Shown here piece by piece: positions 51,801-57,800 of a stretch of 64,000 bases of DNA. Where the stretch lies: positions 21,300,922-21,364,921 of the forward strand of contig NC_092678.1 of NCBI RefSeq assembly GCF_964355755.1, read 5' to 3'. This stretch comes from Antedon mediterranea. Its lineage: Eukaryota > Echinodermata > Crinoidea > Comatulida > Antedonidae. Position 1 is the first letter of the stretch. The number at the start of each line of letters is the position of its first letter. The position numbers and the translations under genes are program-made. Below the pieces are notes generated by a model that saw only the letters and a list, made by a program, of their open reading frames with translations, was not told where the DNA came from and did no database searches.

Positions 51801-54800
51801 TCCATTTTAAGTGAACCGATAAAAATTAATGTCTTGAATCTTGTTTTGTTGTTGAAATATTGACCTAACGTTTGTGTAGTTGGCGTTGTGCCTTACCATA
51901 CTTCCAAGGCCCTGTAAATGAGTATTTTTAACCCTTTTATGTTTCTAGACTTTCTACCGTATCCCTGTGTATCATAATAATTATTTACTTTTTATCAATA
52001 ATAGGTTTTAGAAGGTCTAGATTATTTACACACGAAATGTAAAATAATACACACGGATATTAAACCAGAGAATATTCTAGTTTGTGTGGATGAACCGTAT
52101 ATAAGGAATTTAGCACAGGAGGCAAAGGAATGGATGCAGGGGGCTGCAAAACCTCCCATCTCTTCAGGTGAGTTATTTTATTATTTTTCTATTAACTTTT
52201 GTTTTATTTCAATTAAAGGAAGTGTATCACACTTGTTGACTAAGTCTTATTTGAGGCTTAGGGAGTAGTTTTAAAGTTGTAGGTTAAAACCCTGAGACTA
52301 GATGAAGATTGAACTCAGAACCCAGGGATAGGCAAGAAAGCATGGTAATAACAAACCTACCACTACAATTTTACTAATAGCAATACGCTGTGAAAGCTAC
52401 AATAGAAGCTCTCCGAACTAGACTAGTCTGTTGACGCTGTGAAAGCTACAATAGAAGCTCTCCGAACTAGACTAGTCTGTTGACGCTGTGAAAGCTACAA
52501 TAGAAGCTCTCCGAACTAGACTAGTCTGTTGACGCTGTGAAAGCTACAATAGAAGCTCTCCGAACTAGACTAGTCTGTTGACGCTGTGAAAGCTACAATA
52601 GAAGCTCTCCGAACTAGACTAGTCTGTTGACGCTGTGAAAGCTACAATAGAAGCTCTCCGAACTAGACTAGTCTGTTGACGCTGTGAAAGCTACAATAGA
52701 AGCTCTCCGAACTAGACTAGTCTGTTGACGCTGTGAAAGCTACAATAGAAGCTCTCCGAACTAGACTAGTCTGTTGACGCTGTGAAAGCTACAATAGAAG
52801 CTCTCCGAACTAGACTAGTCTGTTGACGCTGTGAAAGCTACAATAGAAGCTCTCCGAACTAGACTAGTCTGTTGACGCTGTGAAAGCTACAATAGAAGCT
52901 CTCCGAACTAGACTAGTCTGTTGACACTGTGAAAGCTACAATAGAAGCTCTCCGAACTAGACTAGTCTGTTGACGCTGTGAAAGCTACAATAGAAGCTCT
53001 CCGAACTAGACTAGTCTGTTCACTATTTTGTTATTAATATCACTATCAAAAGCTTTGTCTACACTATCAAAAATATATGAATTGTCATTGTGACTTCGTG
53101 GAGAGCGGACGCGTTTTGGATTCGCTCCGCTAAGCTGCTAACTCCATGTAAATTGAGCAGCGGGTAATATGAATACCTAAACCTCCACGCCCAGGTGAGG
53201 CATGCATGCAATAGTTACCGAGCACGCTAAACATACTGAAGATACAATTGTACTGAAGGATAACTAATCGAATACAATATGGCAACAAAAACTAGATCAA
53301 AAGCGGACAGTGAAGACAAGTTGGACACAATTATAGGGAAACTAAAGAAACTGGAAATACTCGACGCCATTAACGAAAGGCTTGTCATTTTGGAAGAGGA
53401 CTTCAAAAACATGTGGCAGAAGGTTAGGGATATGGAAGCATCCCAAGAATCACTACAGGCTAATTTAGATGAAAAGGCAGACTCGCAGGATATGGAAGTA
53501 CTACAAAATCGGGTAGACGAACTGGAAAATAGGCAACGGAGGAACAACATAGTTATTTTTGGCATTCCAGAGCAGTCGGAAGGTAATAACTGTTCAGATT
53601 ATATTCTAGGATTCTTTAAAACATACCTGAAAGTGGATAGTAATAGGCCTATGGACATAGAACGAGCTCACCGTACCCCGACATTCCTGCCCACAGGTGG
53701 TAAACGAGCCAAGTATCCGAGGCCAATACATATTGCCTTCAATAAATTCACCGACAAAATTAAAGTAATGAAGGGAGCTGTAAACTTGAAAAACAGTCCC
53801 TTTTCTGGAAAAAAAGTTTGGATAACGGATGACTTTACCCCAAATCTGAGAATAAAGAGGAAGCGGTTGTGGGCCAAACGTAAGAGACTGTTAGAGGAGA
53901 AACCCGGCAGAAAAGTTTTCTTAAATTACCCGGCTGTATTAAGAATTGTAGAAGAAGACGGAAGTTCGAGACTAGTGCAGTAAAATCTGTCTGTATAAGG
54001 CTGTAATTTAACTTTAAAAACATAACTCTGTGTCGCTATATGATATATTAATTTATCCAACAATGTACTGATATTGTATGTATGCCTGTTAGGGGTATAT
54101 CAGTGATGATTGTATTGATACTTATCTTTTTTCGCTACTTTTTTCGTTGCTTAAAAAAGAAAATTAGGCTATTATTATATTTGAAGAGAATTTATGTTTC
54201 GGGGGTATGGAAGGGGGAAGGATATACCGGGTTTTTTTATCCTTTGTTGGGTGGGTTTTCTTTGTTTCTCTTTTTTTATTTTATTTTATTTTTACTCTAT
54301 AACAAAAAAAAACTGAACACATATGCTAATTTTAACACGAGGTATGATCGAACAATTGGTAATCTGAATACAAAAGTAATACGCATTGCCACAGCACAGG
54401 GCTATTTTGGACTGCGATTACATACAAATTTTACTTTACCTAATGATCTTGGAAAATGTAGTTGCCCACTGATAATTAATAATAAAAATTACTGGATACT
54501 TGAGGTTAATACTAATTACGACTCTTTCATTTCGGCCGGAACATGGTGTATAGACATTGTTGGGCCCCTTAAAAACTTCAGAAAAAATACTGTTAAAATA
54601 AAAGAAAATATAGGAGAGCAATCAAGTAAACTTATAATCGTCTGTAATAAAAATTTAATTAACATAAAATGCAAATTTTACGAACGTAGTAAAATACAAT
54701 GCAATAGAATCAGTCCGTTACTCATCGAAGCTAAAACAATTTTTGGACTGCTATGGTTTATGGTTGTTGCACAAAACAACCATTATGACACCATATATAC

Positions 54801-57800
54801 CCTTGCTTTATTATTTTATCTACCGTTATATATAAACAAAATAAGTAAAAAAATAACAATAAAAAATGTCTAATAATAATAATACGCTATCAATAGTTTC
54901 AATGAACTGTCGAGGTCTAGCAGAAAAATCAAAACGCAGAGATGTGTTACACTATCTAAAGTCAAAAAAATACAATATTATTTGCCTCCAAGATGTACAC
55001 TTCTCGGCAGAAACTGAGTCACTTGTTAGATTGGAGTGGGGCCTTGATTGTTTTTTTAGTTCATATCGTAGTAATGCAAGGGGAGTCGCAATCTTTTTCA
55101 ATAATAACTTTCCCTACACTGTTACAAAGCATAAAAAAGATAATGATGGAAATATGTTAGCTTTGGAGGTAAAGGTTGACGATCTAAAATTTACGCTAAT
55201 CTCAATTTATGGGCCCAACAACGACACCCCCGGTTTTTACGACAAAATGAGGGAAGTTGTTTTAGAATATGAAAACCCACATAATATCGTTTGCGGCGAC
55301 TGGAACTGTATTTTGGACAAAAAATTAGACTGTAAAAATTACCTAAAACTTAATAATCCAAAGGCAAGAGAAAAGATAATAAATATTTGTAGTGAATTTA
55401 ATCTTACAGATGTTTGGCGTGTTTACAACCGAGATGAACAAAAGTTTACCTGGAGACAGAATAAATTCAATAAACAAGCCAGGCTTGATTATTTCCTAAT
55501 CTCATCTGAACTAAACAGCAAAATGCTGGATTGTAATATAAAACCAGGTTACCGAACCGATCACTCACTCGTAGATATTAAAATGACGATGAACCAGATA
55601 AAATACGGGCCAGGATACTGGAAATTTGACAATACCTTATTAAAAGATATTCAATACGTGCAACAAGTTAAAGAAACCATAAATAGAGTCCTAAAACAAT
55701 ATATAGTGCAAAACGAAAAAGATAATAAAGATGCTAATAAAGCGCTGTTTAGCATCAGTGATCAACTTCTTTTAGAAATGATATTAATGGAAATTAGAGC
55801 AAAAACAATTTCTTACGGGGCTTATAAGAAAAAGATTGAAAATAAAAAAGAAAAAGAATTAGAAAGGGAAATAGAAAAAATAACACTTGATATCAATAAG
55901 GGCGACGCCACGTTAAATGGTACACTAGAAATTAAGTCCGGCGAACTTATGAGTATCAGAAAAGTGAAGATGGAAAGAATAATGATGAAAACTAAACTTA
56001 AATGGATCGAAGAAGGCGAAAGGCCGACCAAATTTTTTCTTAATATGGAAAAGAAAAATTTTGTTGATAAAACTATAAATAAAATAGTAAAGGAAAGCAA
56101 CAATAGTATTCTGCAAAACACAAATGAAATTCTTGTTGAGTCTAGACAATTTTATAAAAACCTTTATTCCTCAAACCACAATACAGATGATGAAAAAAAT
56201 ATTGTAAAACTTCTTAAAACTATGAATACATTACCAACATTAACAAAAGAACAACAAAATAAAATCGAAGGGCCAATTACTTATAACGAACTTTTAGTGG
56301 CTCTTAAGAGGTCACAAAATGGAAAGTCACCTGGTATTGACGGCTTTAGCTATGAGTTTTTTAAGTTCTTTTTTGCGGATTTAGTTTACTATCTTTTGAG
56401 AGCTATTAACGAGTCGTATAACTCAGGTCAACTGTCAACTTCCCAAAAGTCAGGAATAATTACTTTACTCCCTAAGAGGGATAAACCCAGAGAGTATCTA
56501 AAAAACTGGAGACCTATTACCCTGTTAAGTGTCACTTATAAACTTGTTTCGTCATGCATTGCAGAACGAATAAAATCGGTCCTTGATATATTAATTAGTG
56601 AACAACAGAAAGGATTTATTAATGGGAGATATATAGGCGAAAATACAAGACTTATGTATGATGTTATTCAAATTTGTGAAAAGAAGAAAATCCCTGGTCT
56701 GCTTTTACTGATAGACTTTGAAAAAGCGTTCGACTGCATTTCTCACACATTTGTTAACTGCGTTCTTAAACATTTTAACTTCGGACAATCCATTCAAAAA
56801 TGGGTGAAAGTACTATATAAAGATGCAAGATCCTCAGTTCTTGTCAATGGCTTTCTCTCCGAATCATTCTTAATCGAAAGAGGATGTAGACAAGGGGATG
56901 GGCTGAGTCCATACCTGTTTCTTCTGTGCGCAGAAATTTTATCCTCAATGATATCTGAAAATAAACAAATTAAAGGAATATCAATTGCAAATCATGAGTA
57001 TCGATTATCTCAGTATGCGGACGACACTGTATTGTTTCTTGACGGTAAAGAGAAGTCAATGCACGAAGCATTTAAGACTCTCGACGTATTTTCCAAAATT
57101 TCCGGGCTAAAAGTGAATGTGAACAAAACAAATGCTGTCTGGGTTGGCTCTTTTAAAGACCGAGGTGACTCAATATGCGAAAACTATAATATAAAATGGA
57201 TCAAACATGGAGAACCCTTTGAATCATTGGGTATTCGGTTCAGTACAAATTTAAATAAAATGGTAGATTTGAACTATGAAGACGTATATAAATCAATTAA
57301 AAATACAATGAGACATTGGTCAAAAAGAAACTTAACTGTTTTGGGAAGAATCACGGTAGTGAAGTCTTTATTACTGTCCAAACTTACCTATATCCTTTCG
57401 ACATTACCCGATCCCCCTGAAAATGTAATAAAATCACTTAAGTCAGAACTATATCGTTTCATATGGAAAGGGGTGGATAGAATATCCAGAGATCAACTTA
57501 TACAAGAAAATAAATTTGGAGGCTTACGAATGGTCGATATAAACGCATATATTCAATCGGTAAAAATCACGTGGGTTAGACGGTTAGTAACGTCCAATGA
57601 GACGGGATGGGCTCTTTTAGTTCCACTCGTGTTGAATATTCATAAAACTTGGCTCATAGAAGGCGGATCATCGAAATTAATCAAATTAGCGAAGGTTAAG
57701 CCTTACAATGCATTTTGGCTGGATGTAATAAAGGCGTGGTGCGTATTTGTGAAACACAACACTCCTATGAGCACCGAATCGATATGTAGACAAACACTCT

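Follow-up and report, generated by a model that had tools for sequence, protein, structure and literature searches.

A third long reading frame between ORF1 and ORF2 of a LINE in the crinoid Antedon mediterranea, a possible relay for ribosomes

The LINE and its reading frames

We analyzed a stretch of 64,000 nt from the genome of Antedon mediterranea (assembly GCF_964355755.1, NC_092678.1, positions 21,300,922 to 21,364,921 of the forward strand; this whole stretch is here referred to as the window). It contains a full-length long interspersed nuclear element (LINE) of L1/Tx1 type, about 6 kb in size, on the plus strand at 53080..59118, as delimited by its ORF2 domains, the 5' match starts of its copies and its poly(A). 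The name L1/Tx1 is the label of a first-pass annotation of this DNA and does not come from a tree of reverse transcriptases (RT). As in elements of that type, the 3' end is a poly(A) tail, here a run of 29 A (59090-59118), and the target-site duplication AAAAATATATG can be read directly on both flanks (53069..53079 and 59114-59124).

The element carries three open reading frames (ORFs), all on the plus strand, in the order ORF1, ORFX and ORF2. ORF1 (53279..53983, from the ORF list) encodes 234 amino acids (aa) and has relatives among the other LINE ORF1s of the genome, with 34% identity to the best full-length ones and ~27-35% to most intact ones. No Pfam match above cut-off was found for it, the L1-type coiled coil, RRM and CTD being the domains looked for. 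ORF2 (54866..58696, from the ORF list and Pfam) encodes 1276 aa with an APE-type endonuclease (Exo_endo_phos, 2.2e-8) and a reverse transcriptase (RVT_1, 1e-33). Between the two, behind a gap of 98 nt from the ORF1 stop to the next frame's ATG (53984..54081), lies the third frame, ORFX, with 263 codons from ATG to TAA (54082..54873) and 273 codons from stop to stop. Three further ATGs lie in the gap, with frames of 2-4 codons behind them. The first-pass annotation had reported an extra frame of 263 codons at exactly this place, and the ORF reading, the shuffles and the copies described below bear it out. It had missed that the ORFX stop lies on the ORF2 start, with eight bases in common (ATGTCTAA, 54866-54873), namely the ORF2 start codon, two bases and the ORFX stop codon.

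Openness of ORFX and its copies in the genome

The openness of ORFX was compared with chance over the stretch of 890 nt that runs from the stop of ORF1 to that of ORFX, with the longest open frame as the measure. The observed 273 codons stand against a maximum of 153 in 5,000 dinucleotide shuffles, 187 in 20,000 shuffles within 60-nt windows and 167 in 20,000 within 30-nt windows, and local shuffles equalled the open length of ORFX in 0/20,000 cases. The annotation had expected chance to break the frame every ten or so codons. The frame does exceed chance, but that figure is too low for a longest run, whose mean is ~58 codons in each of the three shuffle types.

We then searched the 354-Mb assembly with the ORFX protein and DNA as queries. 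The protein gave 14 matches at 10 places, every one of them in copies of the window LINE, and the DNA gave 12 matches, including one additional fragment of 107 bp at C1:27043558. At five of the 10 places, the near-identical copies window, L001, L002, L003 and L005, all 263 codons are free of stops; ORFX of L006 is also stop-free, but has a private 1-nt insertion close to its start. Target-site duplications are readable for the window copy, L002, L003, L005 and L006 (not for L001), and these copies are therefore separate insertions; the duplications are distinct in four of the five copies with an open ORFX (window, L002, L003 and L005). Among these six copies, all three frames are whole only in that of the window: ORF2 has a stop in L001, is interrupted in L002 and is only partial in L006, and part of ORF1 is missing from L003 and L005.

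Two groups of copies can be told apart, a young one (window, L001, L002, L003 and L005) and an older one, 1-4% apart. Stops or frameshifts in other intact copies, which the annotation had named as evidence against a maintained frame, were not seen in the five near-identical copies, and in the older copies ORFX is broken by indels and insertions that are each private to one copy. One older copy, L007 (G000 C4:10763276-10766842), contains ~850 bp of foreign sequence within ORFX, replacing window positions 54239-54307. None of the 36 substitutions in ORFX makes a stop, which has little weight with ~1.7 expected. The 3' end of the LINE has relatives at 80-89% identity; a search for more diverged copies, intended for the ratio of nonsynonymous to synonymous rates (dN/dS), found no ORFX match of that age. 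These results support ORFX as a real extra long frame, in a family that was active recently and whose source copies had the frame open.

Spacers of other LINEs

We inspected 39 places with a related LINE ORF1 or ORF2 (window, L009-L024, L035, L036 and L044-L063) and used the 24 in which both the end of ORF1 and the start of ORF2 could be assigned. The others were dropped by eye: the start of ORF1 or ORF2 was not seen in L009, L011, L013, L015, L023 and L024; ORF2 was broken in L036 and L060; L044, L048 and L053 belong to the family of a used locus or are broken; the start was unclear in L050 and L058; and ORF2 lies in frame behind a UAG in L057 and L062. Afterwards L061 was dropped as well, as Pfam shows RT directly after the start and no endonuclease, which leaves 23 loci; the control counts and the geometry counts (24 loci) include it. 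L052 was retained although its 130-aa piece had no Pfam domain. L043 and L065 were retrieved and left unused. At each locus we took the frame whose stop ends on, or at most 14 nt beyond, the first base of the ORF2 ATG, determined how far it is open inside the spacer, and compared this length with 1,000 shuffles in 30-nt windows, combining the P values by Fisher's method. The cut-off of 14 nt was chosen after a first table had been seen, and hence 8 and 30 nt are given too.

The frames that lead to ORF2 were found to be longer than in the shuffles. At 14 nt the combined P is 5.5e-8 for 24 loci, 2.6e-7 for the 23 without L061, 6.7e-6 when the window LINE is also left out and 1.8e-3 for the 20 loci without L061, the window LINE, L010 and L046; for the same 20 loci it is 0.022 at 8 nt and 1.2e-6 at 30 nt. 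Single loci with P<=0.05 at 14 nt are the window LINE, L010, L012, L016, L035, L045, L046, L054 and L055 (and the dropped L061). As controls, 720 background ATGs were drawn for each cut-off (14 and 30) from window sequence other than LINE; ~5% of them had P<=0.05, and no combined P under 0.17 arose in 30 sets of 24 such ATGs. In the 24 spacers the longest open frame likewise exceeds chance on the sense strand (P 2.3e-9; 7.1e-8 when the window LINE is left out), with no excess on the antisense strand (P 0.20).

The leading frames of L046 and L010 have 176 and 90 codons, respectively. L010 (G000 C5:12100100-12104300) is an impure case, as tandem repeats make up its last spacer frame; the spacer contains such units, of ~115 bp, with hydrophobic frames, the last of which ends TAATG on ORF2. 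The most suggestive relative is L012, whose spacer of 476 nt is tiled by mutually overlapping frames of 94 and 38 aa: the first ATG after ORF1, 99 nt behind its stop, opens the 94-aa frame, which overlaps the 38-aa frame and ends 17 nt after the first base of that frame's ATG, and the 38-aa frame ends ATGGGTAG on the ORF2 start. In the window LINE the ORFX ATG lies 98 nt behind the ORF1 stop and is not the first ATG there. The 176-codon frame of L046 is a separate one with hydrophobic ends and Cys in its middle. Its two copies, both decayed, differ by nine nonsynonymous and one synonymous changes (9N:1S), and the frame has 10 changes in 457 nt where ORF1 and ORF2 together have 5 in 1,248 nt (P 0.0014), so that amino acid constraint does not appear between them. 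Homology of ORFX to the frames of L046, L045 and L012 was considered and rejected, the best E among the three sequences being 0.041 over 21 residues, which is not convincing.

On the sense strand, T minus A of the spacer exceeds that of both flanking ORFs at 21 of the 24 loci, a set that includes the window spacer (53984-54865), and the grand average of hydropathy (GRAVY) is positive for the longest spacer frame in 14 of the first 17 loci. Hydrophobic peptides are therefore usual in such spacers and are no mark of ORFX.

Two of the loci dropped by eye, L057 (G000 C3:7077000-7079801, minus) and L062 (G000 C3:23296364-23299000, plus), are diverged LINEs in which ORF1 ends with UAG and ORF2 continues the same frame past it without an early ATG. 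In both of them G-x-G-x-G-P-N stands behind the UAG, written with differing codons, which makes them candidates for UAG readthrough.

The junction of ORFX and ORF2

The forms AUGnxUGA (x = 2, 5, 8 or 14), UAAUG and AUGA are listed for coupled termination-reinitiation in the accessible part of PMC5972666. The window junction ATGTCTAA fits the first formula given there with x = 2, and its stop and restart codons overlap, where such coupling calls for an overlap or a distance of up to ~14 nt. In the first set of loci, ATGNNTRA stands at the ORF2 start in 6/17 cases, against 3/49 internal Met codons (binomial P 7e-4); in L046 it is found at the second ATG only. No enrichment of ATGA at the ORF2 start was seen (12/24 vs 30/64).

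Predicted properties of the ORFX product

The annotation had described membrane segments at both ends of the product and a Cys-containing, possibly glycosylated middle. Such elements are present, with Kyte-Doolittle values of at least 1.6 at residues 1-26, 50-74 and 212-231, 7 Cys and one N-X-T at residue 116, but the segments are not above chance, since in 300 stop-free shuffles of the ORFX DNA such segments are just as numerous (P 0.20) and just as strong (P 0.62). The codon-position composition also matches stop-free shuffles (P 0.94). Residue use relative to shuffles gives z 0.02 for ORFX, compared with 3.4 for ORF1 and 1.3 to 3.7 for five 263-aa pieces of ORF2. Applied to single pieces, these composition tests have little power: codon position gives P 0.11 for ORF1 itself and P 0.79 for one out of four ORF2 pieces, and the residue use of four 142-aa ORF2 pieces ranges from z -0.2 to 1.95. 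Residues 216-263 of ORFX taken alone reach z 1.81 (P 0.04). No in-frame signal was found in codon usage when ORFX was compared with ORF1 plus ORF2. By composition, the ORFX peptide is not protein-like.

Profile and structure searches, which the annotation had proposed, found no relatives of ORFX in Pfam or among PDB sequences, and the fold search gave no significant match, an uninformative result as the model has a mean pLDDT of 49. In this single-sequence AlphaFold model only the N-terminal helices (residues 1-40, block pLDDT 72-91) are predicted with confidence, the helix pair at 212-257 having low confidence. The annotation had also suggested a captured host gene. We reject this candidate, since residues 74-216 have no non-LINE match in the genome at E<1; their 16 matches at E<=10 comprise 12 LINE copies and 4 with E>1 (not inspected). 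The whole protein matches only LINE copies at E<=0.001.

Selection on amino acids was judged from the substitutions among the copies, leaving out the fragments at C8:18.445 Mb and C1:27.044 Mb. Changes in at least two copies were taken as roughly those of the source lineage, and changes in one copy as decay after insertion. The shared changes are 5N:6S in ORFX, 7N:11S in the first 1.5 kb of ORF2 and 3N:1S in ORF1, while the private ones are 21N:4S in ORFX, 68N:22S plus 6 stops in ORF2 and 5N:5S in ORF1. The neutral expectation is ~3:1 with each transition counted twice, and a stronger bias would weaken the result. With only 11 shared changes, ORFX differs between shared and private (Fisher P 0.039) and from neutral (P 0.035; P 0.02 without the change at 54592, which is common to one young and one old copy and is probably recurrent). 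Shared changes are not denser in ORFX (11 in 784 nt) than in ORF1 and ORF2 (22 in 2,199 nt; P 0.43). For the dN/dS check that the annotation had called for, the shared changes lie below the neutral ratio, as in ORF2, whereas the private ones do not and the shared ones are few; protein-level constraint on ORFX is borderline.

The foremost alternative to a frame kept for its openness is that ORFX encodes a functional membrane-associated accessory protein under purifying selection, with an N-terminal helical hairpin, a Cys middle and a C-terminal hydrophobic hairpin, and that the overlap lets it share an mRNA with ORF2. The substitution counts, the confidently predicted N-terminal helices (and, at low confidence, the C-terminal pair), the residue use of the last 48 residues and the similar layout of the L046 frame argue for it. 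On the other side, ORFX does not differ from stop-free random DNA in hydrophobicity, in overall residue use or in codon-position composition, no homologue was found by sequence or by fold (where the model says little), and the L046 frame has changed at 9N:1S and does not align convincingly with ORFX. We regard such a protein as possible but unlikely.

ORFX as a possible relay cistron

The explanation that we consider best, and that stands an even chance of being right, makes ORFX a relay cistron: its frame would be kept open so that ribosomes reach ORF2, and its product would be optional or fast evolving. The LINE mRNA would be tricistronic. Part of the ribosomes that finish ORF1 would start again 98 nt further down, at the ORFX AUG or close to it, cross the spacer of 882 nt while translating, stop at the ORFX UAA and restart at once on the overlapping ORF2 AUG (AUGUCUAA). 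If ORF2 receives its ribosomes through ORFX, stops in ORFX would be selected against, and selection would keep the frame stop-free. The T-richer composition of the spacer may follow from this freedom from stops or help it, and would give a hydrophobic peptide, one that may be produced but would probably be secondary or fast evolving. An upstream frame that is open and has been kept open, as expected for coupled termination-reinitiation, is what the copies, shuffles, substitutions and survey display. The relay frame is favoured because openness without a protein-like composition is combined with the overlap on the ORF2 start and with the same tendency in other families.

Several points weigh against this explanation. 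The shared changes of ORFX resemble those of ORF2, a hint that its amino acids matter. The loci and start codons of the survey were picked by eye, and some families are related (L014 and L017, also by eye). At the 8-nt cut-off the combined P is 3.8e-4 for 23 loci, 0.0054 without the window LINE, 0.036 also without L010 and 0.022 without both L010 and L046, and at 12 of the 23 loci P stays above 0.05 whichever of the three cut-offs is used. The leading frame of L054 lacks an ATG, and the enrichment of ATGNNTRA is weaker in the full set (6/24 vs 4/64, Fisher P 0.02). Moreover, three other ATGs precede that of ORFX behind the ORF1 stop, the depletion of ATGs that scanning would lead one to expect is not seen in the spacer (17 observed vs 15.0 expected), and no unusual RNA structure was seen at the ORF1/ORFX gap (z 0.52) or at the ORFX/ORF2 junction (z 0.78 upstream, -0.08 downstream).

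ORFX may also be both things, a relay frame whose product became useful and evolves fast. Overprinted or de novo viral accessory genes have comparable fast-evolving products. This would join the excess in the survey with the 5N:6S signal of ORFX; as positive evidence for a product consists of 11 substitutions only, we hold it to be doubtful. A wider proposal, speculative to the same degree, is that in the LINEs of this genome the spacer is a coding relay, with one cistron or several overlapping ones tiling the gap and passing ribosomes on to ORF2 by stop-start coupling, and that in the window family this cistron has lengthened to 263 codons and turned into a third LINE protein, under selection and with ends that span the membrane. 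A frame due to chance or hitch-hiking, without a role and fixed in one master element, would suit a young family whose copies derive from few masters, but is very improbable given the local shuffles (0/20,000) and given that other families show the same tendency while the controls are flat. The least credible option is fusion of ORFX to ORF2 as an N-terminal extension by +1 frameshifting near the A-rich overlap, for although ORF2 is in the +1 frame of ORFX, a TAA in the ORF2 frame two codons before the ATG leaves ~9 nt for the shift, and other families have another relative frame (ATGA, 12/24).

Flanking sequences of the LINE

Directly upstream of the LINE, at 52385-53020, lies a 49-bp minisatellite of 13 copies with 99% matches. 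It was considered as a promoter array of the LINE and rejected, as the matches of L001, L002, L006 and L007 (via L027) begin at 53074-53082, without the array. Inverted repeats read by eye, TCTACACTATCAAA and TTTGATAGTGTAGA at 53058-53071 and 59166-59179, flank the LINE on both sides; it has therefore probably landed in a palindromic element resembling a miniature inverted-repeat transposable element. Beside the LINE, an exon-like stretch at 52005-52170 reads as what we take to be part of a serine/arginine protein kinase, and the LINE therefore seems to be placed in an intron.

Comparison with known systems

How LINEs translate ORF2 is a long-standing question, and a LINE in which a third frame bridges the spacer and stops on the ORF2 start would make a simple test case for reporters. 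The survey suggests that the relay principle extends beyond the family in the window, and if the product of ORFX matters too, it would be a third LINE protein. In the open-licence PMC literature searched, as far as its accessible text goes, a third frame placed between ORF1 and ORF2 is not named for any LINE, most subscription papers and Repbase being outside this scope. The "three ORFs" or "third ORF" in the parts of PMC5972666, PMC2881922, PMC11203168, PMC5633606, PMC10927736, PMC5821460 and PMC5872511 covered here refer to DIRS-1, endogenous retroviruses and the antisense L1 ORF0. ORF0 of LINE-1 is short, antisense and located in the 5' untranslated region, as the relevant part of PMC5821460 has it, whereas ORFX lies between ORF1 and ORF2. 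Extra ORFs on a retroelement are also found in bdelloid retrotransposons with captured accessory ORFs; these elements, however, have long terminal repeats and their ORFs are common to several element types (PMC5408684, in part), while ORFX has no detected relative.

Coupled translation is described for SART1, and termination-reinitiation is proposed for mammalian LINE-1, in the accessible part of PMC5972666. In mammalian LINE-1, as in the window LINE, ORF2 stands behind a spacer that must be crossed, with a length of 63 nt versus 882 nt (PMC5972666, in part), and translation of ORF2 is thought to depend on that of ORF1 (PMC5972666 and PMC2881922, both in part). The window LINE has a separate third frame to bridge its spacer. 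In SART1, ORF1 itself ends on ORF2. SART1, a non-LTR retrotransposon of the silkworm with a bicistronic RNA and UAAUG, shares with the window LINE an upstream frame whose stop lies on or beside the ORF2 start, and its coupled translation needs a downstream RNA structure (PMC5972666, in part); no such structure was seen in the window LINE. With L1/Tx1-type LINEs in general, the window LINE shares ORF1, an ORF2 with APE-type endonuclease and RT, the poly(A) tail and the target-site duplication, and it differs from them in the extra frame of 263 codons between ORF1 and ORF2.

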